From: Peptococcaceae bacterium
GTDB taxonomy: Bacteria > Bacillota > Desulfitobacteriia > Desulfitobacteriales > Syntrophobotulaceae
Length of the DNA stretch: 56,843 nucleotides
Assembly (NCBI GenBank): GCA_012520405.1
Contig: JAAYOJ010000003.1
Span: 1-56,843, forward strand
Reading direction: 5' to 3'
Below are positions 9,647-32,584 of this stretch, piece after piece (positions within the stretch are counted from its first letter, which is position 1; every line of letters starts with the position of its first letter). The notes below the pieces were generated by a model. That model was not told the origin of the DNA and ran no database searches. It was given only the letters and a program-made list of their open reading frames with translations. The translations under genes and the position numbers were made by a program.

Positions 9647-9661
9647 ATAATTTTTCATAAA

Positions 9662-9834
9662 CAGGGTAGAGGCGCGGTTATTAGGAGTAGGTGTTGGGAG
9701 ACGGCAGTCTGTGAACAGCATCCAAGGGATTAGCCGCCGAAGTATAAATCTTTGCCGAAGATTTATACTGGGCTCAGGCTGGAAAGAGTCTGAGACTGTC
9801 GTCCTGGTAGGATGAAGCGCTATCCGGGAACCAA
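9662..9834 (+). promoter_or_regulatory. Lysine riboswitch (L box) aptamer
   Basis: The leader shows the L-box core: GTAGAGGCGC near the 5' side, an AGTAGG turn, the conserved GCCGCCGAAG, a long stem-loop with arms AGTATAAATCTT and AAGATTTATACT, a GGCTGGAAAGAG region and the closing GAAGCGCTATCC. P1 forms between GGGTAG (9664-9669) and CTATCC (9820-9825). Lysine binding would stabilise P1. The downstream gene is lysA, the last step of lysine synthesis, which matches the expected control. Assignment is by pattern, not by a covariance search. Confidence 0.93.
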
Positions 9835-9881: not shown

Positions 9882-9912
9882 TACGGTTTACGGGTAGAAC
9901 CGTATTTTTTTT
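9882..9912 (+). terminator. Riboswitch expression platform: intrinsic terminator
   Basis: ACGGTT pairs with AACCGT, followed by T8. The loop sequence CGGGTAG (9891-9897) is complementary to CTATCCG (9820-9826), the 3' strand of the aptamer P1. Without lysine the P1 strand can pair here and block the terminator; with lysine P1 holds that strand and termination occurs. Confidence 0.85.
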
Positions 9913-9988
9913 AGGCCGTTTTATGTTCATATTTTAATACCGAAGCCAGCGTTATATTAAGCCGGTGATAACTTTAGGAGGTAACACA

Positions 9989-11242
9989 ATGACTAAGAAA
10001 TCATTGCCCTTTTCCGCAGACCAGCTAGAACAAATTGCCGAGGAGTTTGGAACCCCGTTTCATATTTATGATCAAAAGGCGATTATAGATAATGTCAGAG
10101 CCCTGAAGGCAGCTTTTGCTTGGGCACCGGGGTTTAAAGAGTACTTTGCCGTAAAAGCGACCCCCAATCCTTATATTCTGAAAACCTTAGCCGCTGAAGG
10201 GATCGGAGCGGATTGCAGTTCACTGCCCGAGCTTATTTTGGCTGAGAGAGTGGGCCTGGTAGGAGAAGAAATCGTATTTTCATCCAATGATACTCCGGCC
10301 CAGGAGTATATAAAAGCCAAAGAATTGGGTGCTATCATCAATCTTGATGATATCAGCCATATAGATTTCCTGGATCGTGTAGCCGGAATGCCGGAAATGA
10401 TCTGTTTCAGGTATAATCCTGGTCCTCTTCGCCAGGAGGGCAATTCCATTATCGGCAAGCCCGAGGATGCTAAATACGGGGTAGCCAAAGATCAAATATT
10501 TGACTGCTATCTGAAGGCTCAAAAATTAGGAGCTAAACGTTTTGGGCTTCATACCATGGTGATATCGAACGAACTTGATCCTGATTATTTCGTGGAAACA
10601 GCTCGCATGATGTTTGAACTGGCTGTCGAATTGAAACGCCGGGCGAATATTAGAGTTGAGTTTATTGATCTCGGCGGCGGCATAGGTATTCCTTACCGCC
10701 CGGAACAAGAAGCGGTTGATCTGAACTATCTGGGCCGGGAAATTGAAAAAGTATACAACAAAATTCTTGTGCCTGCCGGCTTGCATCCTTTAAAAGTGGC
10801 CATGGAATGTGGCAGAATGATTACCGGCCCCTATGGTTATCTGGTAACCAGGGTTCTTCATAAAAAGGAAATCTATAAGGACTACATCGGGGTTGATGCC
10901 TGTATGGCTGATCTCATGCGTCCGGGTATGTACGGTGCTTATCACCATATAACAGTTAGCGGCAAAGAAAATGCTCCCTGTGACCATATGTATGATGTCA
11001 CCGGCAGCTTGTGCGAAAATAACGATAAATTCGCCATTGACAGAAAGCTCCCAGGAATCGAGATCGGAGATCTACTTGTGATTCATGATACCGGAGCCCA
11101 TGGGCATGCTATGGGTTTCAATTATAACGGCAAGTTAAGATCCAAAGAGCTACTGCTTAAAACTGACGGGACAGTTGAAATGATTCGCCGGGCTGAAACT
11201 ATTGAAGACTATTTTGCAACCTTGGATTTTTCTAGATTATAA
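9989..11242 (+). CDS. lysA: Diaminopimelate decarboxylase
   Basis: A 417-residue fold III PLP enzyme that converts meso-diaminopimelate to L-lysine. The PLP lysine is K56 in YFAVKATPNP; the phosphate-binding glycine stretch is LGGGIGIPYRPEQE, and the second-subunit segment is DVTGSLCENNDKF. The start is ATG 9989, which has AGGAGG at ideal distance; a more upstream GTG has no ribosome-binding site. It is regulated by the lysine riboswitch just upstream. No other lysine pathway gene is adjacent. The 3' end overlaps the convergent yihY-like gene by 34 nt with no terminator between. Confidence 0.95.
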   Translation: MTKKSLPFSADQLEQIAEEFGTPFHIYDQKAIIDNVRALKAAFAWAPGFKEYFAVKATPNPYILKTLAAEGIGADCSSLPELILAERVGLVGEEIVFSSNDTPAQEYIKAKELGAIINLDDISHIDFLDRVAGMPEMICFRYNPGPLRQEGNSIIGKPEDAKYGVAKDQIFDCYLKAQKLGAKRFGLHTMVISNELDPDYFVETARMMFELAVELKRRANIRVEFIDLGGGIGIPYRPEQEAVDLNYLGREIEKVYNKILVPAGLHPLKVAMECGRMITGPYGYLVTRVLHKKEIYKDYIGVDACMADLMRPGMYGAYHHITVSGKENAPCDHMYDVTGSLCENNDKFAIDRKLPGIEIGDLLVIHDTGAHGHAMGFNYNGKLRSKELLLKTDGTVEMIRRAETIEDYFATLDFSRL

Positions 11243-13123: not shown

Positions 13124-13299
13124 TTTACAGCTCCTTTCCATAATGCTAAATTTATTCTTTCCCTGGAAAAATAAATTATTCGCCCAAGAAATTGGAAATA
13201 GAAGTATAGCTAATCTTCCCAAGAACAATGTTTTAGTATACAATAAATAAAACGAATAAACTCGGAATTTATATTTTTTTGGTGATAGGGGGAGAATTC

Positions 13300-14409
13300 G
13301 TGTTCGAGAATGACATACTTGTTGCTGGGGCGGATCCCGGTTTTGGTGCCATTAAACTTGATGTTGGCGATAAAAAGATTTTATTCCCGGCAGTAATTTG
13401 TAACGGGAATGAAAGGATTTTCTCAACTCTTGGCGGTGTAAAGGAAGTAGAAGGCAGTGATCTTGAAAAGCAAATAGCTTCCTTGGATGTTATTGTTAAA
13501 AACAACTCCACAGGGGTAGAGAGGCATTTTTTCATGGGCAGTCTGGCCGAAAGTCTTAACCCTAAAGAAGCTCATTATTGCTGGGATGAGGATAAATCCA
13601 CCGATGAAGAAGCGATGTCCCTTCTTATTGCCGGGTTGGCGTTAGCCCAGCCTTATCCCAAGACCAATATTTATTTAGGAACAGGAGTACCCGTAAAATA
13701 TTTTGCTCCTCTTAAAGATAAATATGAAGCTGAATTAAAGGGTTCATTTTCCGTAACCTTTCTCTCCGGTCCCTTTAAAGGACAAGTCCGCAGTATGAAT
13801 ATTCTTAGATCAAGAGTATTGCCCCAAAGTTACGGCGTGTTTATTAAGGAGACTCTGAACGAGGACAGTACGCCCAAAGATCCTAAATTGTTTGCCGGTT
13901 ACGTAGTGGTTATCGATCCGGGCTTTAGGACTACGGATATTGCTACTTTTCATGACGGTATTATGCTTGACCCACCTAACTCTTTCAGTTTGGAAAAAGG
14001 ACTGCAGTGGGTTTATGCCGGGGTAGCCGAAAAACTGAAGGAAATGACCATGGATCACACCAATCCCATTGAAACTGACGATAAAGAACTGGACAAAATA
14101 TTCAGAGTAAATAAGGGGCTATATCCCTGGAGCAATGGTGCAATCGACCTTAATCCTATAAAGAATAAAATGCTCGCTCAATTAGGGGCGGATATTTCCA
14201 GAGAAATTAATAAAATCTTAAAGCCCCTGGCCGGAAGGATTCATACTATTCTAGTCGGTGGCAAAGTCGGGGAAATGGTGTATGATTATCTTACCCTTGA
14301 TAATAAAGTGTTGATTGAGGATCCCCAATTCGGCAATGCAACGGGATTTCGTATTATGGCAGCTAACTTGGTAAATAATTTAACAAGGAAAGTATCTGTT
14401 GATAAATGA
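13300..14409 (+). CDS. ParM/StbA-like actin-family ATPase
   Basis: A 369-residue actin-fold protein. The phosphate-1 loop is at residues 12-19 (DPGFGAIK), the phosphate-2 loop at about 206-213 (DPGFRTTD) and the adenosine motif in TILVGGKVGEM. These fit the ParM/Alp branch rather than MreB or FtsA. The start is GTG 13300, 5 nt after GGGGGAG; an upstream TTG has no ribosome-binding site. The stop overlaps the next start by 4 nt (ATGA), and that gene encodes a ribbon-helix-helix-like protein, the arrangement of parM-parR. It is probably a filament-forming DNA-segregation motor or a chromosomal relative with another cargo. Confidence 0.85.
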   Translation: MFENDILVAGADPGFGAIKLDVGDKKILFPAVICNGNERIFSTLGGVKEVEGSDLEKQIASLDVIVKNNSTGVERHFFMGSLAESLNPKEAHYCWDEDKSTDEEAMSLLIAGLALAQPYPKTNIYLGTGVPVKYFAPLKDKYEAELKGSFSVTFLSGPFKGQVRSMNILRSRVLPQSYGVFIKETLNEDSTPKDPKLFAGYVVVIDPGFRTTDIATFHDGIMLDPPNSFSLEKGLQWVYAGVAEKLKEMTMDHTNPIETDDKELDKIFRVNKGLYPWSNGAIDLNPIKNKMLAQLGADISREINKILKPLAGRIHTILVGGKVGEMVYDYLTLDNKVLIEDPQFGNATGFRIMAANLVNNLTRKVSVDK

Positions 14410-15011
14410 AAACTTCAGGATATTTAGTGCTGTATATATCTGAAAATGATGACTTTGAGCTGTGGCGGGCCTTATGCCAGTTTACGCCCGAGGAAAGAGC
14501 ATCTGTGGTGAAAACTGCGCTTAAAAAAGCATTGCTGGAAGAATACTCTAGCCAGTCAGCGTCAAGACAGCTTTCTCCTGACCATGAATCTCCCTCTGCG
14601 GTTCGAAATCCGCTTAAGTCAGGAGCAGATATTTCTGGAGATATTACACCCAAGTCCGTTTTCGGGTTTACTGCTCCTAAGTCCCTGGCTCAAAGTTCGG
14701 TCACTCCGGTTCCGGAAGCTCCCAGTCCTGAGATTGCCGGGGCGGTAGCCTCTTACCCAATTAATGATTTAATTTTAGATGACCTGGGAACTGAGCTTAT
14801 CGACCCCCAAATCAATGAGGATTTAACAAGCTCCGAACTTACTGATCTCAATGATCTAAGCATTTTCATACAATCAGAGGAATCTCCGGATAAAAACTCT
14901 ATTCCGGGTCTTAATTTTCTCCTGACCAATGTTATTGGGGAAGAAGACGATGAAACTGTGGTTGAATATATTAGAAAAATGAGAGCGAGCAATGACGAGG
15001 ACGCCGGGTGA
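14406..15011 (+). CDS. ParR-like ribbon-helix-helix protein with long acidic, disordered tail
   Basis: A 201-residue protein. Residues 1-45 look like a ParR-type ribbon-helix-helix: a short strand (YLVLYIS), then helices in ALCQFTPEERASVVKTALKKAL, matching the pattern of ParR around its P-x-x-ER-S segment. Residues 50-120 are Pro/Ser-rich and probably disordered; residues 120-201 are acidic (EEDDETVVEYIRKMR). In ParR the C-terminus contacts ParM filaments. Coupling by ATGA overlap with the actin gene supports a partner role. Similarity is by eye and the family is not certain. A terminator follows. Confidence 0.65.
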   Translation: MKTSGYLVLYISENDDFELWRALCQFTPEERASVVKTALKKALLEEYSSQSASRQLSPDHESPSAVRNPLKSGADISGDITPKSVFGFTAPKSLAQSSVTPVPEAPSPEIAGAVASYPINDLILDDLGTELIDPQINEDLTSSELTDLNDLSIFIQSEESPDKNSIPGLNFLLTNVIGEEDDETVVEYIRKMRASNDEDAG

Positions 15012-15060: not shown

Positions 15061-15098
15061 AAAAATGTCGCTTTCAATTAGGGCGGCATTTTGTTTTT
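15061..15098 (+). terminator. Rho-independent terminator after the actin/ParR-like pair
   Basis: AAAATGTCGC and GCGGCATTTT form a 10-bp stem with one G-U pair, followed by GTTTTT. Confidence 0.8.
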
Positions 15099-15217: not shown

Positions 15218-17761
15218 GTGATTTTTCTGATTAAGCAGAAATTCGACGTAACCGGGATGACTTGCTCCGCCTGTTCAGCCCATGTTGAAAGAACTGTAAG
15301 TAACCTTGAGGGGGTACAAACGGTCAGTGTTAACCTCTTACAAAACAGCATGAGCGTGGAATATGATGAGCAGGCTCTTGATAATAATTCGATTATCAAA
15401 GCGGTTCAAGAGGCCGGGTATAATGCTTTTGTCTCTTCCGGCAAGACCCCAGCAACCGCTATTACAGGCGGGGCTGCCGCTGCTGGCGCTATACCCGCTT
15501 CTAATCCTGCGGAACAAGAAATTCGGCAAATGAAAAAACGTCTGTTTGTTTCCATACTTTTTTCAGTTCCGCTTTTGTATGTTGCTATGGGTCATATGCT
15601 CGGCCTGCCGCTACATAGCCTGCTCTTAGGACCTGAAAATGCCCTTAGCTTTGCTTTTACTCAATTTCTGCTGGTTTTACCGATAGCCATTGTCAATAAT
15701 AAGTATTTTCTAGTCGGTTTCAGAAGCTTATTTAAGCGGGCTCCCAATATGGATTCCCTCATAGCTATCGGCTCGGCGGCGGCCTTAGTCTATGGAGTTT
15801 TCGCTATCTACAGAATCGGCTACGGCCTGGGGCATATGGACTTAAGCTTAGCCGAGCATTATGCTAAGGATTTGTATTTCGAGTCAGCGGGAATAATCCT
15901 GACTTTAATCACCCTGGGCAAATATCTGGAAGCCAGAGCCAAGGGAAAAACTTCCGAGGCAATCAAGAGGCTGATAAACTTAGCTCCCCAAACAGCGCTG
16001 GTAATCAGAGATAATATAGAAAGTGAGATACCGGTGGAAGAAGTCCGGGTAGGGGACATTCTTATTGTTAAACCGGGGGGGACGATTCCCGTTGATGGCA
16101 TTATTGTGGAAGGCAATTCCTCAGTGGATGAATCAGCCCTGACGGGGGAAAGCATGCCGGTAGACAAAAAAACAGGGGATAGGGTGACCGGAGCCAGTAT
16201 TAATATAGCGGGGACTTTTAAATTTGAGGCCTTAAAGGTCGGAGATGATACCACCCTGGCTCAGATTATCCGTTTGGTGGAAGAAGCAGCCTCTTCTAAA
16301 GCACCCATCTCCAAGCTGGCGGACCGTATCAGTAGTTATTTTGTTCCGACTGTGATCGTGATCGCTCTATTGGCAACTACGATCTGGCTGCTTAGGGGCT
16401 ACCCCTTTGAATTTGCTTTTTCCATCGGTATAGCCGTATTGGTTATCTCTTGTCCCTGCGCCTTAGGGCTCGCCACTCCTACTGCAATTATGGTGGGTAC
16501 AGGGCGAGGTGCGGAGAAAGGAATCCTGATAAAATCGGCAGAGGCCCTGGAAATTGCGCACCAGATTCAAACCGTAGTTTTAGATAAGACCGGGACGATA
16601 ACCGAGGGTAAACCGCGAGTAACTGACCTTATAATAGACAGTGGAGTAGCGGATCTTGAGGATAAGGAGCTTATGCGGCTTGCCGCTTCCTTGGAAAAAT
16701 CTTCAGAGCATCCTCTGGCTAAGGCTATTGTGGAAGAGGCAGAGCGTTTGGAACTACAGCTTTATCCGGTAGAAGATTTCCTGGCAATACCGGGCAGGGG
16801 AATTGAAGCTATACTTAATAATAAAAAATACTTAGCCGGAAACTTGAACCTGATGACTGAAAACAAGATCCCAATCGGAAACTTAGCGGCTAAAGCAAAC
16901 AGTCTGGCTGAGGAAGGCAAAACGCCTCTCTTCTTTGCCGATCAGGACAAGATCTTAGGGATTATTGCCGTGGCTGATGTGGTGAAAGCTACCAGTAAGG
17001 CTGCCTTAGATAGCTTTGCCAAGATGGGAATTGAGGCCATTATGCTCACGGGGGACAACAAAAAAACCGCCGAGGCGATCCGCCGCCAACTAAATATCGA
17101 CAGAACAATTGCCGAGCTTATGCCCCAGGATAAAGAACGGGAAATTCGTAATATCCAGGAGAGCGGCCGGAAAGTGGCCATGATTGGGGATGGTATTAAC
17201 GATGCTCCGGCACTGACCAGAGCTGATATCGGGATAGCTATAGGGGCCGGAACTGATATAGCGATTGAGTCTGCCGACATTGTATTAATGAGAAGCGACC
17301 TGTTGGATGCTACTGCCGCCATTCAGCTGAGTAAAGCAGTAGTCAGAAACATTAAACAAAATCTGTTCTGGGCTTTATTTTATAATACCTTAGGCATACC
17401 TTTAGCTGCCGGTATTTTTTATCCTTTGCTCGGCTGGAAGTTAAGCCCGATGTTTGCGGCAGCGGCTATGAGTTTAAGCTCGGTATGCGTGGTTTCCAAT
17501 GCTTTGAGATTAAAGATGTTTAAGACTGAAAATATATATCAAGGAGGGATGACCATGCAGAAAACTATGACTATTGAAGGAATGAGCTGTTTGCATTGTT
17601 CCGGACGAGTGGAAAGAGCTCTAAACGCTTTGGAGGGTGTACAGGCAGTAGTAGACTTGGAAAAAAAGACTGCCCGCATTACTTTGGAGAGGGAAATCAG
17701 TGATGAGCTACTGAAAAATGCCGTTACAGACGCAGGTTATGAGGTGGTAGAGTTGCGCTAA
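15218..17761 (+). CDS. copA: Copper-exporting P1B-type ATPase with a C-terminal CopZ-like domain
   Basis: An 847-residue P1B ATPase. An N-terminal heavy-metal domain has CSAC (C16/C19); the transmembrane CPC is at 412-414, the phosphorylation site DKTGT starts at D456, and SSEHPLAKA and GDGINDAPA are present. It exports Cu(I). A second heavy-metal domain with CLHC (C791/C794) forms the C-terminus, which is unusual. The start is uncertain: GTG 15218 overlaps the AAGGAG ribosome-binding site, whereas CTG 15227 sits 8 nt after it and fits the usual N-terminus. A terminator lies upstream and another downstream, so the gene is monocistronic. Confidence 0.93.
17555..17761 (+). CDS. copZ: Copper chaperone CopZ, nested in frame at the 3' end of copA
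   Basis: The last 68 codons of the ATPase frame have exactly the length and sequence of a free CopZ ([18 protein letters not shown], copper-binding CxxC). An ideal ribosome-binding site, AAGGAGGG (17541-17548), lies 6 nt before ATG 17555. The same DNA can therefore give a C-terminal domain of CopA and, by internal initiation, a free copper chaperone. I infer both products; the sequence only shows the site. Confidence 0.7.
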
Positions 17762-17959: not shown

Positions 17960-20900
17960 ATGAACACCGGCACTAACATCCAGGGTCTTAGGAGAAGAAA
18001 ATGGCAGGCCGTAATCAGTATAGCTATAGTTGTAGCCTTACTGGCTGGAATATTCTGGGGCATGGGCGGCACGGGCTTGTTTCTCAAGCCGGCCCAAGCC
18101 GCTGAAGTCAACATTGTAGCTTTAAATTCAGACCGCCTGGGAATTGAAATCGATACAGAGTTTTTACTGTCCAGCAATCAGCCCTTGGCTAAAAATGAAG
18201 TCCAGGAAGCCTTAAAAATTGAGCCTCAATTTGACTATAGTCTGGATAAAATGGATGGGGGAAAGAAATATAAAATTATTCCGCTTGCCAAGTTGGACCC
18301 TAATAAGATTTATACTTTGTCTTATGATCAGGATGGAAGCGGCAGAGAAAATATGAGCTGGGCTTTTCAGACTAAGAGCAAATTCCATGTTGTCCGTTCT
18401 TTGCCCGCTAATCAAACGACCAATGTGCCAATAAATACCGGGATAGAGATCACCTTCTCCCATGATAACTTTGACCTTAATACTGCAAAAGACTATTTTA
18501 GCATTTCGCCTCAGGTCAAAGGTAGTTGGGAAAAACACAAAAAAACTCTGGTGTTTGTACCGGATAAACTGGAGCCGGCCACAATTTACCAAGTTGTGTT
18601 GCAGAAAGATTTGGCCCTTAAGGGGACCAAGGAAACCTTAGCCCAAGAATATGCCTTTAGCTTTGAAACCGCCCCTCTGCAGCAGGAAACAGAATCATTT
18701 GTTCTGAGCCTGGATACCGCTCTGACTGAATTTTCCACTACTGAAAAGCCGGTATTTCCTGTTCATTTCTATGGTGGAGACGTTAAGGCCGGCGAGCTAG
18801 CGGTTCACATCGATCTTTACCGCTATCCCGGTTATCAGGAATTTAAAAAATCTCTTGGACAGAGGGATAAAATCCCCAGATGGTCCTATCTGGCTTGGAA
18901 TCAATATCAAGAAGAGTTGAACCCGGCCTATAAAATAGCCGGCTATGACACCAAACTCCTAAGCGCCGACACTTATACCCATTATCTTGCTTTTCCCCAA
19001 ACGCTGCAGCCTGGCTATTACGCGGCAGAGTTCTCAGTGAAGGACTGTGTGCGCCAAGTCTGGTTCCAGGTCAGCGACCTGGCGGTCTATTTATCCCAGG
19101 GAACAGAAAAGAGCTTGTTTTGGGCTCACAATCTCCAAACAAAATCTCCCGCTGCCGGTGTGGAAGTAGTAGTAGAAAGTAAGGGCCTGGTGCAAAAAGG
19201 GGATGATACAGGGGTTGTCCTGGTTGATGCTAACTTATTCAGTGACCAGAAAGATTATGCCCTAGTCAGAAGTGCCGATCTGGAAACCCTGGTTCCCCTG
19301 GAGAGCAGGGAGAATTGGATGCAAACAACGGGGAAACCCCAGGCCATGGATTATTGGAAATACTTCTACCTGGACCGGGAGCTTTATAAGCCGGGCGATA
19401 CAGTTAATTTTTGGGGAGTAGTCTCGGCCAGGGGTAAGGATACCCCACCCATACAAGAAGTCATTCTTGAACTTTGGGGTACGGACGGTCCTTACTATGA
19501 AGGGGCCCAAGCTGCTCCAATTCAGACCCAAAGGATAAATATTCAGGATAAAATTTTTACCGGGCAGATAAAGCTGCCGATTTTAAAGCCAGGCTATTAT
19601 TATCTGCAAATTAAAGCCGATGGCGATATTGTTCTTATCTCCAGAGGATTTTCCGTGGAGACTTATCAAAAACCATCCTACAAATTATCACTGACCCAGG
19701 ATAAAAGAGCTGTCTTCAGAGGAGATAAAGTAAACTTCCTGGCTAATACTTCTTTCTTTGAAGGTACTCCGGTGCCTGATCTTAAACTGGATTATTTCTG
19801 TGGGGATAAAAGCGGTACAGTTACAACCAATCAGTATGGGGAAGCAGAAATTTCCTGCACAGGATATTTGCATAATGAGCATTACAACCCCTATGGATAT
19901 GTTTCCCTAGGCGTAAACGCTCTTCTGCCGGAGGCCGGAGAAATATTTTGCTCGGGAGAATTTTATGTCTTCCAGAGCCAAGTTTACCTGACAGGCCAAG
20001 CTCAAGCTACTGCCGATGGCTATACCCTTGAAGCTAAATTATTCAATGTTGATTTGACAGCTATTAACAACGGCCATCCTATAGCTGAGGAACATTTTTT
20101 AAAGGGACCGGTAGTCCAGAGCAGGATTAAAGCAAGTCTTTACCAGGAAATCTGGACGCCGGTGGAAACAGGCAGGCATTACGATTTTATCAGCAAGCAA
20201 GTAGTGCCAACTTATTATTATGAATATTCTACTAAACACCTAGAAGATTTCGAACTGACCACTGACGCTGACGGTGCGGTAAAATACAGCGGGCAGGTAG
20301 ATAATGCTAAAAACAGCTATTATCTTGAGCTTACAGCCCAAGACTCCCATGGACGCCAGTTTATACGGCGAATTCAGATAGGCGGCCTAAGCAGATCCGA
20401 CCCGAATTACCAGTACTACTACCTGCAGAACCAAACTGGAAAAGATGGATTTAAGCCGGGGGAAGAAGTTGAAGTCACTTTGATGGTCAACGACCAACAA
20501 CTACTTACCTCCGCCGGGAGTATACTCTATTACCGCGGCCAAAGCTTTATTGAGTCTTATCAGGTATCCAACAGTTCGCAGTACGGATTTTCCTTTATCA
20601 CTCAGCATATTCCCAATGTTAATGTCGGCGCGATTTATTTCGACGGTCTTAACTATTACGAGGCTTCCCCGCTGGCGGTGGGTTTTGATCGGAAAACAAA
20701 AGCGCTGGATGTTAAAATTCATACGGATAAAAGCGCCTACCGTCCCGGGGAAAAGGTTAAACTAGATGTTCAGGTCACTGATGCCAATCGTAAACCGGTT
20801 AAGGATGCTTCGATTAACCTTAACCTGGTTGATGAAGCTCTTTTCAGTTTACGGGATCAAAATGTCAATTTCCTTAACTCCCTGTACGGGGATTACTATT

Positions 20901-22840
20901 ATCTCTTTCAACGTAGCTGGAGGTCACACGATCATCCCTTTTACAGGGGAGGAGCGGAGCAAGGAGGGGAAGGAGCGGGAGAGCGCCAAGATTTCAGGGA
21001 TACGGTCCTGTTTGCCACGCTTCAAACCGATAGCCGGGGTCAGGCCGCAGTAGAGTTTGAACTGCCCGATAACCTTACTTCCTGGCGCGTCACTTACCAT
21101 GCCTTCACTAGTAACCTTGAGGCCGGAAGCGGTACAGTGCACATCCCGGTAAAACTGCCGTTTTTTATGGAAATAATCCACAATCCGATTTATCTGGCGG
21201 GTGATTCCCCAGTGGTGATGCTTCGCTCATTCGGGGAAAAACTCACGGACGGGCAGGAAATATCCTATAATCTCAGACTTACAGATCCTAACGGGGTGGA
21301 GCAGACTTATATGCTAAAAGGAAGGGCTTTTCAGTCCGTGGACTTAAAGCTTCCGGTTTTGCAAGAAGGAAAGTATACCCTTCATGCTGTAGCCCAAGGT
21401 GACAAGCTACAAGACAGCATTATTAAGGAATTTACAGTCCGGCAATCATTTCAGGAAAGAACTGTGACCAGGCAGGAACTTTTGACAGATAATATTAAGA
21501 TTATGGGTTCCCCTAAGCAGCCCACAGATCTGATTTTCTGCGATTATGAGAAAAGCCAGTACCTTCGAGGCCTGTATCAGCTGGCCTGGAATAACGGCAG
21601 CCGTTTGGAACAAGCTCTGGCTGCCCATGAGGCCGGAAGGCTTCTAAATCAATACTTCCCGGATGAAGGGTATATTTCTCGAGAAGACCAGGATTCTCTT
21701 CTTAGCTACCAGCAGCCCGACGGTGGGCTCAGCATTCTGCCTTATGCCGAGAGCGAACTGGGCTTGAGTGCCATGGTAGCTGTCAATAGTCCGGAAGTCT
21801 TTGACAGCCATGCTTTAGCAGGTTACTTTTATAGCATTCTGGAGAGCCAAAAAGAAGATGACAGGAGTTTAGCTCTTTTGGGTTTAGCAGCGCTTAAACA
21901 GCCCGTACTTCTGCAAATCAATGACTACCTGCAAGAACCGAATCTAGAACCCGAAGTCAAGATCAATTTGGCCCTGGCCCTCTTGGAAATCGGAGACGGG
22001 GCTTATGCCGAGAAAGTGTACCGGGAGCTTAGGCAGGACTATGCCGAAGACCTTGGGGCTGTGACCAGGATTAAGGTGGCCGGCGATCAGGACGACATCG
22101 TGACAGCTACTAGCCAGATGGCTATGTTGGCGGCCCGCCTGGATCAGCCTGAAAAACACGAACTCTATCAGTACCTGCTGGAAAACCCCGGTCAAGATAT
22201 CCTCAACACGGTGGAACAAGTTCAAATCCTTAAATACAATTTAAAATACATGAAGAACTCTCCCGTAAGCTTTACTTATAACTTAAACGGTTCTCAGGTC
22301 ACTAAAACTTTGCAGGGCCAAGAGACCTTTAAACTCACCTTGCTACCCGCAGATATACCAAAAATCAGCTTTAATTCAATTGAAGGTAAGGTCGGGGTCA
22401 TAACCAAGTATGCAGAAGCCTTCAAGGCCGGGAAAAAAGGGCTAGCTACCGATCTTGAACTCAGTCGCCATTACATGGTTAACGGCCAGACAACCAAGAA
22501 CATTAATCGCACAGATCTGGTCAAAGTAGTGATCAACTACAATATTGGGGATAGGGCACCTAACGGGATTTATGAAGTGGTGGATGTCCTGCCGACAGGC
22601 TTAAGCTACATCTCTCGTCCCTATGAATACAAGGAAAAACCTGATGTTTACTGGAATTATCCTTCGGAAGTCAAGGGCCAGAAACTGACCTTCTTGGTTA
22701 GTAAAGACCGGCACCAGATCACTTATTTGGCCCGAGTGAATTCGCCGGGCGAGTTTATCTGTGAAGCCCCGCTTTTAAGTAATATCAAAAATAGCACGGT
22801 TTATACCGGCGGCAGCCAGGATAGGATTGTGATTAAATAA
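17960..22840 (+). CDS. Alpha-2-macroglobulin family protein lacking the thioester cysteine
   Basis: A 1626-residue, membrane-anchored or exported protein: basic N-terminus, one hydrophobic helix (about 17-40) ending PAQAAE, then many beta-sandwich MG domains. A Gly/Glu-rich bait-like segment lies at about 995-1012 and is followed by the typical FATLQTDSRGQAAVEF and LPDNLTSWRVTYHAF. The helical toroid domain starts near 1200. At the usual GCxEQ thioester site it reads GSRLEQ (1213-1218), so the reactive cysteine is missing. Family members trap proteases; a thioester-less form would have to rely on conformational trapping or a structural role. GGAGGTGG precedes the ATG. Its stop overlaps the next start (TAATG). 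Confidence 0.9.
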   Translation: MNTGTNIQGLRRRKWQAVISIAIVVALLAGIFWGMGGTGLFLKPAQAAEVNIVALNSDRLGIEIDTEFLLSSNQPLAKNEVQEALKIEPQFDYSLDKMDGGKKYKIIPLAKLDPNKIYTLSYDQDGSGRENMSWAFQTKSKFHVVRSLPANQTTNVPINTGIEITFSHDNFDLNTAKDYFSISPQVKGSWEKHKKTLVFVPDKLEPATIYQVVLQKDLALKGTKETLAQEYAFSFETAPLQQETESFVLSLDTALTEFSTTEKPVFPVHFYGGDVKAGELAVHIDLYRYPGYQEFKKSLGQRDKIPRWSYLAWNQYQEELNPAYKIAGYDTKLLSADTYTHYLAFPQTLQPGYYAAEFSVKDCVRQVWFQVSDLAVYLSQGTEKSLFWAHNLQTKSPAAGVEVVVESKGLVQKGDDTGVVLVDANLFSDQKDYALVRSADLETLVPLESRENWMQTTGKPQAMDYWKYFYLDRELYKPGDTVNFWGVVSARGKDTPPIQEVILELWGTDGPYYEGAQAAPIQTQRINIQDKIFTGQIKLPILKPGYYYLQIKADGDIVLISRGFSVETYQKPSYKLSLTQDKRAVFRGDKVNFLANTSFFEGTPVPDLKLDYFCGDKSGTVTTNQYGEAEISCTGYLHNEHYNPYGYVSLGVNALLPEAGEIFCSGEFYVFQSQVYLTGQAQATADGYTLEAKLFNVDLTAINNGHPIAEEHFLKGPVVQSRIKASLYQEIWTPVETGRHYDFISKQVVPTYYYEYSTKHLEDFELTTDADGAVKYSGQVDNAKNSYYLELTAQDSHGRQFIRRIQIGGLSRSDPNYQYYYLQNQTGKDGFKPGEEVEVTLMVNDQQLLTSAGSILYYRGQSFIESYQVSNSSQYGFSFITQHIPNVNVGAIYFDGLNYYEASPLAVGFDRKTKALDVKIHTDKSAYRPGEKVKLDVQVTDANRKPVKDASINLNLVDEALFSLRDQNVNFLNSLYGDYYYLFQRSWRSHDHPFYRGGAEQGGEGAGERQDFRDTVLFATLQTDSRGQAAVEFELPDNLTSWRVTYHAFTSNLEAGSGTVHIPVKLPFFMEIIHNPIYLAGDSPVVMLRSFGEKLTDGQEISYNLRLTDPNGVEQTYMLKGRAFQSVDLKLPVLQEGKYTLHAVAQGDKLQDSIIKEFTVRQSFQERTVTRQELLTDNIKIMGSPKQPTDLIFCDYEKSQYLRGLYQLAWNNGSRLEQALAAHEAGRLLNQYFPDEGYISREDQDSLLSYQQPDGGLSILPYAESELGLSAMVAVNSPEVFDSHALAGYFYSILESQKEDDRSLALLGLAALKQPVLLQINDYLQEPNLEPEVKINLALALLEIGDGAYAEKVYRELRQDYAEDLGAVTRIKVAGDQDDIVTATSQMAMLAARLDQPEKHELYQYLLENPGQDILNTVEQVQILKYNLKYMKNSPVSFTYNLNGSQVTKTLQGQETFKLTLLPADIPKISFNSIEGKVGVITKYAEAFKAGKKGLATDLELSRHYMVNGQTTKNINRTDLVKVVINYNIGDRAPNGIYEVVDVLPTGLSYISRPYEYKEKPDVYWNYPSEVKGQKLTFLVSKDRHQITYLARVNSPGEFICEAPLLSNIKNSTVYTGGSQDRIVIK

Positions 22841-23944: not shown

Positions 23945-25528
23945 GTGAACCCATCAATAGATATCTTTATTAACTTATTTGTTAAACGTGGCATTACCTC
24001 CCGAGAACAATTGTTGAACGAAATGTTACGCGTCAAACTTACAGCGCGAGCGGTTAAATCACAGGGGAAAACTCCGCAAGATGGAGAGCAACTTTTCCAA
24101 TTGATGAAGCAATCTACTGAAAGTACAATCCTGGGATACTTTCCGGGCGACAGAGATTTCTTTTCTTCTGTTTATAAGAGTGCCCAAGAAATTGATCTTA
24201 TTGAGTATACACTTAAACTATTCCAAAATGACCGCTTGGGACAGATATTTTCTCCGGCATATTTGACAGAATATGTTTGTAGCCAGATAGACGATGAAGA
24301 TGCTCAGTCCATACTTATTGCCGAAGCGGAAAAAAGCCTGGCGGGTCTCAAAGGTTTGGTAGAGAAGCATTCTTTAAGTAAAATAACCCTCGCCACCTCC
24401 AATGTACTTATGTTTATGCTTCTTAAGCTTGGATTTGAAGGATTTAAGAACATCACTATTCTTAATCAGTCCATATATCAGGGGCTGCTTATGGATACCC
24501 GTTTTGACTTTATCTATTCATTACCTGATTTTGGCGGCAAGATTGAAACCGTTGACCATAGCTTTATGTCCTCAAAACCGGATATTGCGGCAACCCAGAA
24601 CTTGCTTGGGCATTTATCCGACAGGGGGGTGCTGGTGACTGTACTGCCTGCTAAGATTACATTTGCCGGCGGTTCGGAAGCAAAACTGCGTGAGCATATC
24701 ATGACTAACTATCAATTGGAGGGTATTTACAGTCTTCCCGAAGGTACTTTTAAGCCCTATACTGCCATAAAAACCTATTTAATCAAAATTGGTACTGCCA
24801 AAAAAGAAAATGTGAGCGTGGGAAGTTTAGGCTATGATAATGGCCTTTATGTCGATAAAGTAAAGCTAGTGAAGACCAAAAAAATGGCTTCAAACAAGGA
24901 TTGGAGGATTGAACTCATACTCTCGGATGATGATGAGAATATCAGAAAGTATAAGACCTCAACTCTCGAAAGAGTTAAACTCCATGAAATAGCAGAGATT
25001 TTCAGGGGAAAATCAATCCTCAAAAAAGATATTAAACCTGGAAAAATTCTGGTGCTAAATATTTCAAACCTTACCGATACCGGTATTAATTATTCCAATA
25101 TGGACAGTATCGCTGAAGAAGAACGAAAAATCAAAAGATATGAACTTATAGACGGTGATGTAGTCCTATCCTGCAGGGGCTCGGCAATTAAAACGGGTGT
25201 ATATCGTAAACAAGAAAGTGTCGTTATCGCCTCGGCCAATGTTATTGTAATCAGACCTAAAAGCAAGGTTTTAAGTGATTACCTTAAGATATTCTTTGAA
25301 AGTCCTGTCGGAACAGCACTTATAAAAAGCTTTCAGCGAGGGACAAGCATTATAAATATTAATCATACTGACATTAAGGAAATGGAAATACCGCTGCTGA
25401 GTAAAGAAGAGCAAAAAGAACTGGTGGAAAAATATATAAAGGAAGTTGAGTTATATAGAGAGACTGTGGCCAGGGCGGAAAAACGTTATCTGGCAGAAAA
25501 GGAAAAAATTTATAATAGGTTAGTGTGA
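23945..25528 (+). CDS. Degenerate N6-methyltransferase domain fused to a single HsdS-type target-recognition domain
   Basis: A 527-residue protein heading the restriction operon. Residues about 90-290 follow the layout of Hsd[14 protein letters not shown] matches the F-x-TP segment, YSLPDFGGK stands where HsdM has NPPF, and the following stretch aligns by eye with the HsdM region after NPPF. No AdoMet motif I and no NPPY/F are present, so it should be catalytically dead. Residues about 335-527 are one HsdS-like TRD plus a coiled-coil helix ([27 protein letters not shown]). Start GTG 23945 with GGAAGGGGAG. It may act as an alternative half-specificity or regulatory subunit, which is inference. 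Confidence 0.8.
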
Positions 25529-25544
25529 GGAGGATAAACAAAAG

Positions 25545-27134
25545 ATGGCAACGGTAAATTTAGGATTTGAAAACAATTTATGGGAAATGGCAGATAAACT
25601 GCGTGGCAATATTGAGGCTTCGGAATACAAGCATGTTGTATTGGGACTTATTTTCCTGAAATACATATCCGACGCTTTTGAGGAAAGATATAACGAACTG
25701 CTTGAAGAAGGTGAAGGATTTGAGGAAGATATTGATGCATACACTGAAGAAAATGTTTTTTTCGTACCTAAGGAAGCCCGTTGGGAGTATATAAAAGCAA
25801 ATGCCAAGCAGCCAACGATCGGACAGATTATCGATGAAGCCATGATCGCTATTGAAAAGGAAAACGCCACCCTTAAAGGAGTACTGCCGAAAAACTATGC
25901 CCGTCCGGAAATAGATAAGACAAAACTTGGTGAACTTATCGACCTCTTTTCCTTTAAAGTTGGTGATAAGGAAGCAAGAGCAAAAGATGTTCTTGGTAGG
26001 GTTTATGAATACTTCCTTGGAAAGTTCGGTTCGTCGGAAGGAGAATTTTACACCCCACCATCTATTGTAAAGCTACTTGTTGAAATGATTGAACCCTATA
26101 GAGGAAGGGTTTATGACCCCTGCTGCGGGTCCGGCGGCATGTTTGTGCAAAGCCAAAGATTCGTTGAAGAACACAGCGGCAGAAAGGATGACATCCATAT
26201 TTTTGGACAAGAATACACTGCTACCACCTGGCGGCTTTGTAAAATGAATCTTGCTATCAGGGGTATTGACGGAAACCTTGGTGAACGGGATGCGGATACT
26301 TTTTCTAACGATCTCCACAAAATGTTGAAGGCGGATTATATATTGGCCAATCCTCCCTTTAATATTAAGGATTGGGGAGCTAACAGGTTGGCCGGTGATG
26401 TTCGTTGGAAATATGGTATGCCCCCTGTGGGAAACGCCAACTATGCCTGGATACAGCACATTATTTCCAAGCTCTCCCCAAATGGGGTAGCGGGCTTTGT
26501 TATGGCCAATGGCTCGATGTCTACCAATACAAGCAGTGAAGCGGAAATAAGGAAGAATATAATCGAAGACAAATTGGTGGATTGCATTATTACCCTGCCG
26601 TCAAATCTTTTCTATAATGTAACCATTCCTGCTTGCCTGTGGTTTTTAACAAGGAATAAAAAATCCGGAGGACGAGATCGCAGCAATGAAATTCTCTTTA
26701 TTGATGCCCGCAAGATGGGTACCATGATTGACCGCAAGCACAGGGAACTTGATTATGAGACAGAAATAAAATATATTGCCGATACTTATCGTAATTGGAA
26801 AAAAACAATTCCCCTGCCGGCTGAAATCGATAACGAACTGGACATGGTGGCTGAGACCCAGGCAGCCTATGAAATTGAAAAACTTAAAGAGAAAGAAAGA
26901 TATCGGGATATAAAAGGATTCTGCAAATCGGCTACCTTGGATGAAGTACGCTCCCATGAATATATTCTCACCCCCGGCAGATATGTAGGGATTGAAGAAC
27001 AGCCCGATGACGGGGAACCTTTTGAGGAAAAGATGACCAGGCTCACCGATGAGCTGGCTGAGATGTTTGCCAAGCGCAAGTCTCTGGAGGAGGAAATCCG
27101 CAAAAGACTGGGGGTGATCGGGTATGAGTTTTAA
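25545..27134 (+). CDS. hsdM: Type I restriction-modification methyltransferase subunit
   Basis: A 529-residue HsdM. It has the N-terminal helical HsdM_N domain ([12 protein letters not shown]), [16 protein letters not shown], AdoMet motif I in DPCCGSGGM and the catalytic NPPF at 269-272. It methylates N6 of adenine in the sequence set by HsdS. AGGAGG precedes ATG 25545, and its 3' end overlaps the rhuM-like gene by 11 nt. All catalytic motifs look intact. Confidence 0.96.
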
Positions 27135-28152
27135 AAATAATTCCGAAATATTGATGTACCAGACTGAAGACGGGAAAACGAAGATTGAAGTCAGAATGGA
27201 GGATGAGACAGTTTGGCTTTCATTGAATCAGATGGCCGAACTCTTCCAAAGGGATAAGTCTGTAATATCGTGCCATATTAAAAATGTTTTTACTGAAGGC
27301 GAATTAGATAGAAAATCAGTTGTTGCAAATTTTGCAACAACTGCGGCAGATGGAAAAACCTATAATGTGGAATATTTCAACCTGGATGTTATAATCTCCG
27401 TCGGCTACCGTGTTAAATCCCACAGGGGTACACAGTTCAGAATCTGGGCTACTCAAAGATTGAGGGAATATATAATCAAGGGCTTTACCATGAATGATGA
27501 TCTGCTGAAAAAAGCGGGCGGAGGCAATTATTTTGAAGAGCTTTTGGAGCGCATCCGGGATATTCGCTCCAGCGAAAAAGTTTTTTATCGTAAGATTTTA
27601 GATATTTATGCCACCAGTATTGACTATTCACCTAATGCAGCCATTTCACAACAGTTTTTTCAAACGGTCCAGAATAAAATGCACTGGGCGGCCCATGGGC
27701 ATACTGCGGCAGAAATTGTTTATCTGAGAGCCGATGGTTCCAAGCCTTATATGGGAATGACCAACTTTACCGGTTCTAGACCCACCAAGGCAGAATCTCA
27801 GATTGCTAAAAACTATCTTACAGAGGATGAATTGGCGGTATTAAACCGCATCGTCAACGCTTATATCGAATTTGCTGAACTTCAGGCCATGCGCAGAAAG
27901 CCCATGTACATGACCGACTGGGTAAGTAAATTAGACGAGTTCCTTAAAATGAGCGACAGTGAGATTCTTACGCACGCAGGTAAAATCAGCCACCAACAAG
28001 CCGCTAAAAAGGCAATAGAAGAGTATGACAAGTATAAGGAACGGACCAAAAATGAACTTTCCGAGGTGGAAAAGCATTTTTTAGAGAGTATAGATAAGAC
28101 TGTAAAGAAGCTGAAAGGGAAGAAGGACGGTGTCGGGGGTGATGGGAAGTGA
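27124..28152 (+). CDS. RhuM family protein within the restriction operon
   Basis: A 342-residue RhuM-family protein; the N-terminal KilA-N/Bro-like part has [18 protein letters not shown] and [17 protein letters not shown], and the C-terminus is helical and lysine-rich. The family was named for a Salmonella pathogenicity-island gene and is often found between hsdM and hsdS in type I systems; its role is unknown, perhaps DNA binding or control of restriction. It overlaps hsdM at its start and hsdS (GTGA) at its end, so it is translated as part of the operon. Confidence 0.9.
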
Positions 28153-29339
28153 GTGTTGATGGATGGAGAGAGGTAAGGCTTGGGGATGTGTGTGAAAGTG
28201 TGTCAAATACACATTCTTTTGGAAAGTCCGAGTTGATATTCCTAAATACGTCTGATGTTTATGAAGGCTCAATTTTGCATAATAAATATTCTCCTGTTGC
28301 GAATATGCCTGGCCAAGCCAAGAAAAGCATAAAAAAGGGAGATATTCTGTATAGCGAAATAAGGCCCAAAAATAGAAGGTACGCTATGGTCAATTTTGAT
28401 GCTTCAGATTATGTTGTATCAACTAAATTTATGGTTATTAGAAGTAAGGGCTTAATCGATAATAAATTCTTATATTTATATCTTACGTCAGATGAGGTTC
28501 TGGAAACTTTACAACAAGTGGCTGAAGCACGCTCTGGGACGTTTCCGCAAATTACTTTTACTCAAGTAGCAGAGTTGAATGTAAGTCTTCCTCCATTACC
28601 AGAGCAAAAGGCGATCGTCGCCACACTATCTGCCCTTGACGATATGATCGAGCTTAACAACCAAATTAACAAAACCCTTGAGGAAATGGCGCAGGCCATC
28701 TTTAAATCCTGGTTTGTGGATTTTGAGCCGTTTAAGGATGGGGAGTTTGAGAAAAGCGAACTGGGGCCGATACCGAAGGGGTGGAAAGCTGGAAGGTTAG
28801 GAGATATTGTCGATATTTTTGATTCGAAAAGGGTTCCCCTTTCGAGCCGACAAAGAAGTGTTATGGAAAAGAAGTATCCATATTATGGAGCCGCCACATT
28901 GATGGACTATGTTGATGACTATATTTTTGAAGGTGTTCATGTTTTACTAGGCGAGGATGGCACGGTGATGGATGAGAAGGGCTATCCCATTTTGCAATAT
29001 GTGTGGGGTAAATTCTGGGTAAATAACCATGCCCATGTTTTGAAAGGCAAGGGTATTTTCTCTGATGAGTACTTATATATGCTTCTTAAAAATACGAATG
29101 TAGCAAGCATCGTGACAGGAGCTGTGCAGCCAAAAATCAATCAGGGTAATCTTATTGGATTAAAAGTTATAATCCCCCCGGATGATGCAGTGAAGCAATA
29201 TAATGAAATAGTTAAGGATATTTTTGCTTGTTTGAGATCTAATGATGATGAACAAAGAGTGCTGATGTCATTGCGCGACACTCTCCTCCCCAAACTAATG
29301 AGTGGCGAAATAAGAGTACCAGTTGAAGAGGTTGTGTGA
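28149..29339 (+). CDS. hsdS: Type I restriction-modification specificity subunit
   Basis: A 396-residue HsdS with two target-recognition domains (about 1-150 and 210-350), each followed by a conserved coiled-coil helix (PPLPEQKAIVATLSALDDMI and the similar LMSLRDTLLPKLMSGE end, each family-typical). The two TRDs read the two halves of a bipartite site. The start GTG overlaps the rhuM stop by 4 nt. Both TRDs appear complete and no inverted hsdS copy is nearby that could allow shuffling, apart from the single TRD encoded in the first gene of the operon. Confidence 0.94.
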   Translation: MSVDGWREVRLGDVCESVSNTHSFGKSELIFLNTSDVYEGSILHNKYSPVANMPGQAKKSIKKGDILYSEIRPKNRRYAMVNFDASDYVVSTKFMVIRSKGLIDNKFLYLYLTSDEVLETLQQVAEARSGTFPQITFTQVAELNVSLPPLPEQKAIVATLSALDDMIELNNQINKTLEEMAQAIFKSWFVDFEPFKDGEFEKSELGPIPKGWKAGRLGDIVDIFDSKRVPLSSRQRSVMEKKYPYYGAATLMDYVDDYIFEGVHVLLGEDGTVMDEKGYPILQYVWGKFWVNNHAHVLKGKGIFSDEYLYMLLKNTNVASIVTGAVQPKINQGNLIGLKVIIPPDDAVKQYNEIVKDIFACLRSNDDEQRVLMSLRDTLLPKLMSGEIRVPVEEVV

Positions 29340-29368
29340 AATCTAAGTGATAGAAAGGAGGATGCCTT

Positions 29369-32300
29369 ATGCCTAGCCATAATATATATGAGGACGAGCT
29401 GGAGCAGGCGACCTTGGAATGGTTTGAAGAACTGGGCTATGAAATTGCCTTTGCTCCGGATATCTCTCCGGGCGGGGATTATCCTGAACGTTCCGACTAT
29501 TCCGATGTAATACTGGGAGAACGTCTGAAGGACGCCTTAAAGCGTATTAATCCGGATTTACCCCAGGAAGCTCTGGATGATGCCCTGCATCAAATTCTTG
29601 TGCCCCTTAATCCCGCCCTAATAGATAACAATCGTCTTTTTCAGAAGATGGTCACCGACGGGGTGAATGCTAGCTTTAGGGCCGATGAGGGCAGAATAGT
29701 CAGCAAGCAGGTCAAGGTTTTTGACTACGAGAAAGTAGAGAATAATGATTTTTTGGTTGTGAACCAATTTACCGTGATCGAAAGCAGGATTGAAAAACGT
29801 CCCGATCTGGTGGTATTTGTCAACGGCATTCCCCTTGTGGTCCTCGAACTTAAAAACTTGGCCAACGAGGACGTGGAAATATCCGATGCCTATAATCAGA
29901 TCCAAAACAATATAAGCACCATCCCATTACTCTTTACTTATAATTCTTTTGCGGTTATATCCGATGGGGTAAATGCCAGGGTAGGTACAATCACGGCCAA
30001 TGAAGACTGGTTTATGGTGTGGCGTACTATTGATGGAGAGGAGCTTGCCCCTGCAGGCCGTCCCCAGCTTGAAGTCTTAATCAAGGGTATGTTTGAAAAG
30101 GAACGTCTGCTGGATATTATTAAGAATTTTATATTATTCCAAACAGACGGAAAAGACACCTATAAAATTCTGGCCGGTTATCATCAATATCATGCTGTCA
30201 ACAAGGCAGTTGAAAGCACTATAAGAGCCGCCATCACTGAGGGGGATCGCAAAGCCGGTGTTGTTTGGCATACCCAGGGCAGCGGTAAAAGTCTTTCCAT
30301 GGTTTTCTATGTAGGCAAGCTTGTTCTGGCGCAAGAACTCAATAACCCGACAATTGTAGTGATTACCGACCGTAACGACCTTGATGACCAGTTGTTTTCT
30401 ACTTTTGCTAAATCAAAAGATTTATTACGTCAGGAGCCGGTGCAAGCTCTGGACAGAGCAGATCTTCGCAGACTCTTGGCGAGAGAATCGGGAGGCATAA
30501 TCTTCACCACCATACATAAATTTGCTCCTGAAGAAAAAGGGGACAGTGTAGCTGTTCTTACAGATCGGGAAAACGTTATTGTTATTGCTGATGAAGCCCA
30601 TAGAAGTCAGTACGGATTTGCAGCGGAAATTGTCAAAGGCGATACCGAAGCTGAGGTCAAATACGGCTATGCCAAATATATGCGGGATGCCCTTCCTAAT
30701 GCATCTTATATCGGCTTTACCGGTACGCCCATATCCCTTGTGGATAAGGATACCAGGGCAGTATTCGGCGACTATATCGATATTTATGATATGACCAGAG
30801 CAGTGGAAGACGGTACCACAGTGCGTATTTTCTATGAAAGCCGGATTGCCAAACTGGAACTACCGGATGAACTAAAGCCCGCTATTGACAGTGAATATGA
30901 AGAAATCACTGAATACCAGGAGTATACCCAAAAAGAAAAGCTCAAGTCCAAATGGTCAAGGCTTGAAGCTATCGTGGGAGCCGAGCAGCGAGTAAAAGCG
31001 ATCGCCAAAGATATTGTGGAGCATTTTGAGAAGCGGCTCGCCGCCCAGGAAAAAGAAGCGGGCAAAGGGATGATCGTAACCATGTCCCGCCGGATTGCGG
31101 TAGACCTTTATAAAGCCATTGTAGAATTGCGTCCGGACTGGCACTCTGACGATGTGGAAAAAGGCGTCATTAAGGTAGTCATGACCGGAAGCTCATCAGA
31201 TCCTAAAGAATGGCAGCCTTTCATCGGCACAAAGGCTACCCGGGACAGAATAGCCAAGCGCATGAAGGATAATGAGGATGAGCTGAAGCTGGTCATAGTA
31301 CGTGATATGTGGTTGACCGGTTTCGATGTTCCCAGCATGCACACCATGTATATTGACAAACCCATGCAAGGACATAATCTAATGCAGGCTATTGCCCGCG
31401 TTAACCGGGTGTTTGGGGAGAAGCAGGGCGGCTTGATTGTAGATTATATCGGCCTTGCCGAAAACCTGAAAAACGCCCTTAAGGATTATACCGAAAGCGA
31501 CCGGGAACAGACCGGTGTTGATACAGAACTGGCAGTAGCAGTACTCCTTGAAAAATATGAATTGATTAAGGAATTGCTCCATGGCCATGATTATCAGAAA
31601 TTTTTTACCGGCTCTGCTTCAGACAGAATGGGCGCCATTGTCGAAACCATCGACTACATTATAGGGCTGCGTGAGGAAGGCAAAAACAATTACCTTAAGC
31701 TGGTCAGCGAACTTTCCAAAGCTTATTCCCTTTGTGCTACTACCGATCCTGCTGAAAAATTAAATCTGGAAATAGGTTTCCATAAAGCAGTTAAATCCGG
31801 GATTATTAAGCTCATTCCCGAAGATTCCAAAAAGAAAACTGCTGCGGAAGTCGAGGCCCAGCTTAACCAGCTTATCTCTAAATCCATTACCAGCAATGAG
31901 GTTATCGATGTTTTGGATGCTGTTGGGCTAAATAAGCCGAATATCGCTATACTGTCCGACGATTTTTTGGAGGAAGTGCGCAACATGAAGCAGCGCAATC
32001 TTGCTGTTGAGCTCCTCAATAGGCTGCTCAAAGGCAAGGTCAAGACTTTTTCCAAGCGAAATCTGATTCAGTCCAGAAAGTTTTCAGAGCTTTTAGAAAA
32101 TGCTATCAGAAAATACCAGAACCGCACTATTGAAACCACCCAAGTTATTATGGAACTTATCCAGCTGGCTAAAGAAATCAATGAAGCCCATAAGCGTGGA
32201 GAAAAAACCGGTCTTACTGAAGATGAACTGGCCTTTTACGATGCTCTTGCCGAAAATGAGTCTGCCAAAGAGCTAATGGGTGACGAGATCCTAAAGCAAA

Positions 32301-32584
32301 TAGCTAAGGATTTGACGGAGGCCATACGCAAAAACTTAAGCATTGACTGGTCTATTCGGGCCAGTGTCCAGGCTAAAATGAAAATGGTCATAAAAAGGCT
32401 GCTTAAACGTTACGGCTACCCGCCGGATAAAACGCCTAAGGCTGTGGAAACAGTAATGGAGCAAGCTAAGCTTATGTGCCAAAACGAGAGTTCAGCTATT
32501 AAGTATCAGTACCGGCTTGCTAAAGAAGAAGTGCCAAAAGTGGCGGATGAAAGAGGAATTTCAAATTATGAGACTAATACTTAA
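29369..32584 (+). CDS. hsdR: Type I restriction-modification endonuclease/translocase subunit
   Basis: A 1071-residue HsdR. The N-terminal nuclease domain has [10 protein letters not shown] and VLELKN (PD-(D/E)xK). Walker A is QGSGKS (303-308), the DEAH box starts at D408 ([10 protein letters not shown]), and [16 protein letters not shown] and QAIARVNR are later helicase motifs. A helical C-terminal domain binds the HsdM/HsdS core. It translocates and cuts DNA lacking methylation. AAAGGAGG precedes the ATG. It ends the operon and is intact. Confidence 0.96.

Follow-up and report, generated by a model that had tools for sequence, protein, structure and literature searches.

Partition systems built on the actin-like protein ParM are best known from plasmids, where the centromere parC usually consists of direct repeats upstream of parM (PMC5016525 and PMC9426499, in the parts available) and where the tail of ParR binds a hydrophobic pocket of ParM (PMC5016525, likewise). 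The closest described relatives of the locus studied here are chromosomal. According to the accessible part of PMC12270681, Dh-cParM1 of Desulfitobacterium hafniense assembles into filaments, single and doubled, when given ATP or GTP, is conserved in five of six Desulfitobacterium species and is followed by a conserved cParR, whose protein yield was too low for study, while no plasmids are reported for the genus. The same text leaves Dh-cParM1 without a known function, proposes an "indispensable function" for it, and demonstrates a cparC for Clostridium botulinum, with none described there for Dh-cParMR-1. Our literature search returned no further paper on ParM proteins encoded by chromosomes of this order. 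For sister organisms the core of the finding is already published, and the pair described below is a further case of the known cParMR-1 type, found in a stretch of 56,843 nucleotides (the window), which is the entire contig C216 of a Peptococcaceae genome.

Gene pair and operon signals

The parM gene lies on the forward strand at positions 13300 to 14409 (GTG at 13300, TGA at 14407-14409) and encodes an actin-like ATPase of 369 aa; the open reading frame listing gives TTG 13279 as the start, but the orthologues align from GTG 13300. The partner gene (parR-like, cParR1; 201 aa, ATG start) follows on the same strand at 14406 to 15011, a delimitation based on the overlap, an alignment of 34 partners and structural models. 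The two genes share an ATGA at 14406-14409, just where a sequence-only reading of this DNA had seen an overlap between an actin-fold gene and its partner.

ParM is an orthologue of D. hafniense Dh-cParM1: a phmmer search of the PDB aligned residues 1-366 of 369 with 8x1i (Dh-cParM1, E 4.5e-193). Further PDB matches to 6izr and 6ixw place it within the ParM-type actin fold, and it matched ALP_N in Pfam (E 3.4e-17) and phrog_691, a "partition protein", in PHROGs (E 9.4e-33). The actin-like proteins PRTRC_D and FcmB were rejected as identities, the scores against the curated NCBIfam models being 29.0 bits (cut-off 214.8) and 27.4 bits (cut-off 300).

A promoter-like site (TTCCCA-N17-TACAAT, 13216-13244, forward strand) precedes parM, and a terminator-like hairpin followed by a T run (15062-15092, forward strand) comes after the partner gene; both are consensus matches, and the terminator pattern matched twice where shuffled sequences averaged 2.3 matches. 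Given these two signals, parM and its partner look like a short operon of their own. Of the 51 cParM1 loci, 36 have the pattern TTNNCA-N17-TAYAAT no further than 150 bp from the start, compared with 0.2% of shuffled stretches, and the spacer between the hexamers, which may hold a small operator, is strongly conserved inside each family. By its sequence the promoter is of the vegetative type, and we infer vegetative expression and a vegetative role. The parM promoter region is present as a single copy, since a search of its own genome returned only itself.

Chromosomal setting

TrpS, ScpA, ScpB and LysA, named by eye from their translations, are found in the window, together with SpoVAD, GerA and a GltX-type tRNA synthetase identified by Pfam. 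The window holds 43 open reading frames of at least 140 aa, and among the 25 scanned with Pfam (the pair and 23 neighbours) no replication or transposase family was present, in agreement with the earlier observation that replication genes and mobile elements are missing and that the neighbours are chromosomal. In ten relatives with a single-contig chromosome, parM sits on that chromosome, at no fixed distance from dnaA: on the path to the point opposite dnaA, its position ranges from 0.34 to 0.93. The sequence-only reading had named a plasmid contig as the result that would overturn it; the chromosomal neighbours and the chromosomal location in relatives rule this out.

Several other features of the window deserve mention. 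A lysine riboswitch (Rfam RF00168, 111.8 bits) is found at 9659-9830, ahead of a lysA-like gene at 9965. Next to each other lie the genes of a copper-type P-ATPase (15218-17761), which has two HMA domains, and of an alpha-2-macroglobulin-like protein of 1626 aa (17960-22840, Pfam) that includes a bacterial Ig-like domain. A type I restriction-modification locus (23945-32584) contains separate HsdM, HsdS and HsdR and an extra 527-aa open reading frame that joins N6_Mtase and Methylase_S domains.

Distribution, conservation and loss

A set of 100 genomes, including the source genome, was searched, and 72 genomes of the order were used for co-occurrence counts. Some ParM match was obtained in 64 of the 100, with 53 full-length orthologues at 73-98% identity (100% in the source genome itself). 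An intact orthologue is present in 53 of the 72 genomes of the order: by family, in 24 of 25 (f1), 29 of 45 (f2; 29 of 44 within the 72) and none of three (f3). The f2 orthologues are 73-78% identical to the window ParM, and matches further afield are 25-29% identical. Named counterparts belong to Peptococcaceae, Gracilibacter, Gracilibacteraceae, Candidatus Dichloromethanomonas, Desulfosporosinus, Desulfitobacterium and Paradesulfitobacterium. Conservation of the pair on the chromosomes of relatives, which the sequence-only reading had proposed to check, is seen both in these counts and in the ten single-contig chromosomes.

The surroundings are family-specific. At most f1 loci the pair comes after trpS-scpA-scpB-lysA-BrkB-DUF4363-yetF, and at most f2 loci it adjoins cobT/cobU/cobS and asnB (BrkB, DUF4363 and YetF were assigned by Pfam, the remaining genes by eye from their sequences). 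Over 17 f1 loci, the coverage-weighted mean identity of ParM to the window protein is 83.7%, higher than that of all seven named neighbours compared, namely LysA (75.1%, 16 loci), ScpB (70.2%, 14), ScpA (68.8%, 14), TrpS (66.6%, 14), YetF (56.6%, 17), BrkB (48.3%, 17) and DUF4363 (43.0%, 16). The partner averages 34.8% at the same 17 loci.

The best plasmid relatives of ParM are about 25% identical to it and the phage relatives 22-30%, which makes a recent capture very unlikely. Thus, of the earlier suggestion of a captured plasmid module, a capture in ancient history is still plausible, and a recent one is contradicted by these identities and by the neighbourhoods conserved in two families.

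The pair has also disappeared from several lineages. Two f2 genomes keep remnants within an intact conserved neighbourhood: in G054 (L115, about 9898-10500) an internal deletion begins near codon 65 of ParM and runs on into the partner, and in G061 (L116) only about the last 35 ParM codons are left. Other near-complete genomes are without the pair (e.g., G033, G035, G057 and G069). Because of these remnants and absences the pair is dispensable in some lineages, which speaks against the indispensable function put forward in the accessible part of PMC12270681.

Anatomy of the partner

The partner is divided into three parts, all encoded on the forward strand: a predicted ribbon-helix-helix (RHH) domain (residues 1-53, 14406-14564), a variable and apparently disordered linker (residues 49-165, 14550-14900), delimited by alignment, AF2 and composition, and a conserved tail (residues 166-201, 14901-15008) with the motif IGEEDDE. 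In the alignment of 34 partners the first 50 and about the last 35 residues are conserved, and the linker varies in both length and sequence. The AF2 model of the full partner has two helices near the N-terminus (residues 17-24 and 28-53) and two near the C-terminus (169-176 and 183-196), with low confidence in between; modelling of the N-terminal domain alone (30 sequences) gave the same two N-terminal helices with a mean pLDDT of 85.

Searches with the window partner against Pfam, NCBIfam, PHROGs and the PDB gave nothing notable, the 34 partners returned scattered weak matches in Pfam, and the only PDB match of the partner profile, 2k1o, was non-significant (E 0.59). By structure, Foldseek with the full model found no match at E of 10 or below. 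The ParR of plasmid pB171 (2jd3) was the sole chain found with the full model by VIA (Z 3.9, rmsd 3.1, 49 residues aligned; a weak score) and the best match of the N-terminal domain (Foldseek E 1.2; VIA Z 4.9, rmsd 2.7, 49 aligned, the next row scoring 3.0; again weak scores). These scores would say little individually, but ParR came first in both searches, and the N-terminus is modelled as an RHH like that of plasmid ParR, as the sequence-only reading had guessed from the first residues.

That reading had also described the rest of the partner as Pro/Ser-rich and then acidic. The composition agrees with this (35% Pro+Ser in residues 48-118; 28% Asp+Glu and a net charge of -12 in residues 119-165); what had been taken for an acidic tail, however, is a linker that ends in a conserved helical hairpin. 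This hairpin is amphipathic (residues about 166-196), and its motif, IG.E-acidic-D-E, is present in 34 of 34 partners and in 48 of a wider set of 52, where L102 departs from it in a single letter and the other three exceptions are truncated at the end of a contig; five partners of the wider set carry it twice. By analogy with the plasmid ParR tail that binds the ParM pocket (PMC5016525, in the part available), the hairpin is probably a ParM-binding hook.

Some lineages have additions to the linker. In genus g5, very long linkers rich in Ala, Pro and Glu, with an FAKYTWGYRY segment present twice, are seen in the partners of L081 (382 aa) and L112 (358 aa), and f2 partners such as L139 and L152 have a second short conserved patch, approximately FSLExLF, in mid-linker.

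The ribbon, defined here as the nine residues ahead of the first partner helix and in an RHH normally the strand that contacts DNA, has neither Lys nor Arg in 31 of the 34 aligned partners. Within the first 20 residues, the 34 cParR1 have a mean of 0.44 Lys+Arg versus 3.33 in nine distant ParR-like partners, a comparison whose P value ignores relatedness and whose 34 rows omit g5 and most of g16. The reference proteins come from ten distant ParM loci with a candidate partner (L113, L114, L118, L119 and L159-L164), from which nine were chosen by eye: L159 was left out because the protein downstream does not resemble an RHH, and at L162 the choice fell on the second open reading frame downstream, which does. 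In the set of 52, the exceptions within the first 20 residues are L081 and L106 of g5 and L093 of g16, with two to three Lys/Arg (three in L093), and two g16 partners (L097 and L100) have a Ser/Thr/Asn-bearing ribbon. The ribbon composition suggests that DNA contact by the partner is weak or lost in most lineages.

Search for a centromere

A k-mer test for direct repeats beside the window parM gave z values of 0.0 upstream and 2.0 downstream, showing no parC-like repeats next to the operon, and within 250 bp upstream (51 cParM1 loci) or downstream (49 loci) no repeat array is common to the loci. Values of z of at least 3 were obtained upstream only at L081 and L083 and downstream only at L086 and L105; those repeats are read as local duplications, since they are absent in the near relatives tested (L106, L111, L112; L085; L088; L090). 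The same test recovered the positive controls, with z of 12.4 for a second ParMR cassette of G031 and 11.0 for L119, a distant ParM locus; an Alicyclobacillus phage cassette reached 40.3 when a simpler shuffle was used. The downstream repeat flagged at L118 reads by eye as coding low complexity and was not used as a control.

In a period scan of the neighbourhoods, up to about 10 kb on each side, none of the cParM1 loci showed an array with a period of 10, 11 or 22 above threshold; the sensitivity is limited, as the controls L113 and L164 pass and L119, L163, L161 and L118 fall below threshold. Values of at least 0.58 were reached at L063, L077, L078, L081, L087 and L091, with periods of 9, 12, 15, 17, 18, 21 and 24. 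Both tests agree with the sequence-only reading, which had noted the lack of an iteron array, in that no recognisable local centromere array is present. They would overlook a centromere whose repeats are few or imperfect, and for one C. perfringens ParR a site as short as two imperfect 8-bp repeats is reported (PMC9426499, in the part available).

Two of the control loci are of interest in themselves. The second cassette of G031 (L113:1100-1246) has at least ten 11-bp iterons upstream, resembling a textbook parC, and in Alicyclobacillus phage KKP_3916 (L164, upstream of 1489) a dense array of repeats of about 11 bp lies ahead of a ParM-like gene annotated as hypothetical.

Sporulation, MreB and ParB

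Among the 72 genomes, the pair and SpoIVA occur together in 48, the pair only in five, SpoIVA only in 17 and neither in two. Four of the five genomes with the pair only belong to genus g5 and have Spo0A without SpoIVA and SpoVAD; these drafts are 83-95% complete, and the same absence in all four is consistent. In the fifth, G023, which has Spo0A and SpoVAD, an assembly gap may explain the missing SpoIVA. Pair and sporulation each occur without the other and are thus uncoupled both ways, and a forespore role is not supported. Since MreB is present in all 72 genomes and ParB in 46 of 46 good genomes, the pair replaces neither of the two, and a replacement of MreB, considered as a candidate role, is not supported.

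Possible functions

The reading that we favour, with a probability of roughly 0.6, is that of a long-domesticated chromosomal cParMR-1 of the Desulfitobacterium type that probably does not act as a local iteron-clustered segrosome. Expressed from a small operon of its own with a vegetative-type promoter, ParM would polymerise with ATP or GTP, as others have shown for the D. hafniense orthologue (PMC12270681, in the part available). The partner would dimerise through its RHH domain, and the C-terminal hairpin, on a long flexible acidic linker, could reach the end of a ParM filament, so that the partner would tether or regulate filament ends via a small or distant site, or via something that is not DNA. 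A local iteron-clustered segrosome is improbable because no recognisable repeated centromere lies beside the operon and because the ribbon is without basic residues in most species. On this reading the pair is neither a plasmid-maintenance cassette nor a sporulation device.

A rival explanation, which we hold to be possible but short of an even chance, is an auxiliary role in chromosome segregation: the partner would bind the chromosome at some distance from the operon, at a site that is short or dispersed, and chromosomal DNA would be pushed or pulled by ParM filaments beside ParABS. The ParR-like fold and the joint persistence of the two genes on chromosomes are in line with this, the universal ParB of the good genomes would make the pair a supplement, and the accessible part of PMC12270681 suggests that filaments push the chromosome, provided that cParR and cparC are functional; however, no site was found, the ribbon lacks basic residues in most species, the distance to dnaA varies, and the pair has been lost naturally. 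The RHH might instead be a dimeriser only, with the filament positioning another structure or being itself the product, a reading we consider rather unlikely. It would account for the hydrophobic, acidic ribbon, free of Lys/Arg in nearly all aligned partners, for the missing local array and for the combination of a drifting linker with a ParM more strongly constrained than the genes around it. The C. botulinum chromosomal ParR is indeed described as a depolymerising factor in the available part of PMC12270681, although there the same protein binds DNA too, and neither a cargo candidate nor a partner gene constant in the neighbourhood across both families is at hand, and the few polar or basic ribbons (L081, L093, L106, L097 and L100) fit poorly. 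The more specific proposal that most lineages gave up centromere and DNA contact and kept the RHH as dimeriser together with the ParM hook, so that the filaments of vegetative cells throughout the order now position or regulate a cargo other than DNA, is, at this point, tentative and on the doubtful side.

The remaining alternatives are of much lower probability. A partition module that still serves plasmids or mobile elements in trans from the chromosome would explain the family resemblance to ParMRC, and mobile elements with ParM and iterons do exist in related hosts, but the lack of a close plasmid or phage relative, the conservation in two families within fixed neighbourhoods and a Desulfitobacterium without reported plasmids (PMC12270681, in the part available) make it improbable. 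Least probable, to the point of being nearly dismissed, is an actin system confined to the forespore that would move DNA or membrane as spores form, the example that the sequence-only reading had brought up. The presence of spoVAD and gerA inside the window, and of gerABC-like genes (named by eye) near the pair in several f2 loci, would favour it; the intact pair in the four g5 genomes that have Spo0A without SpoIVA and SpoVAD, its absence in intact form from 17 of 65 SpoIVA-positive genomes, and the vegetative-type promoter all count against it.

For a family in which one chromosomal ParM is proven to polymerise, the data offer several handles: a conserved tail, a non-basic ribbon, natural losses and the prediction that the pair is independent of sporulation. 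Should the cargo prove not to be DNA, this would be a plasmid segregation motor turned into a cell cytoskeleton.

Comparison with known systems

The nearest known system is Dh-cParM1/Dh-cParR1 (PDB 8x1i), also chromosomal, whose ParM is orthologous over the whole length and is directly followed by the partner, for which the available part of PMC12270681 likewise gives an RHH by AlphaFold. The window pair, in contrast, comes from another family of the order and another neighbourhood, with a different linker and ribbon, and is known from its sequence alone, whereas filaments of Dh-cParM1 have been seen experimentally (PMC12270681, same part). With the type II plasmid ParMRC systems (R1, pB171 and pSK41) it shares an actin-like ParM and an RHH ParR, including the fold match to pB171; unlike them it is chromosomal, has a long linker, no parC-like array was found for it, and in most of its relatives the ribbon has no basic residues. 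The second cassette of G031 has a ParM about 41% identical and a partner ending in a similar acidic helical motif, but differs by its upstream 11-bp iterons (at least ten) and a ribbon bearing Lys, Arg and Asn. Finally, Cb-cParCMR of Clostridium botulinum is also a chromosomal ParM-ParR pair, which, unlike the present one, has a cparC bound by its ParR and is confined to some strains, as described in the accessible part of PMC12270681.
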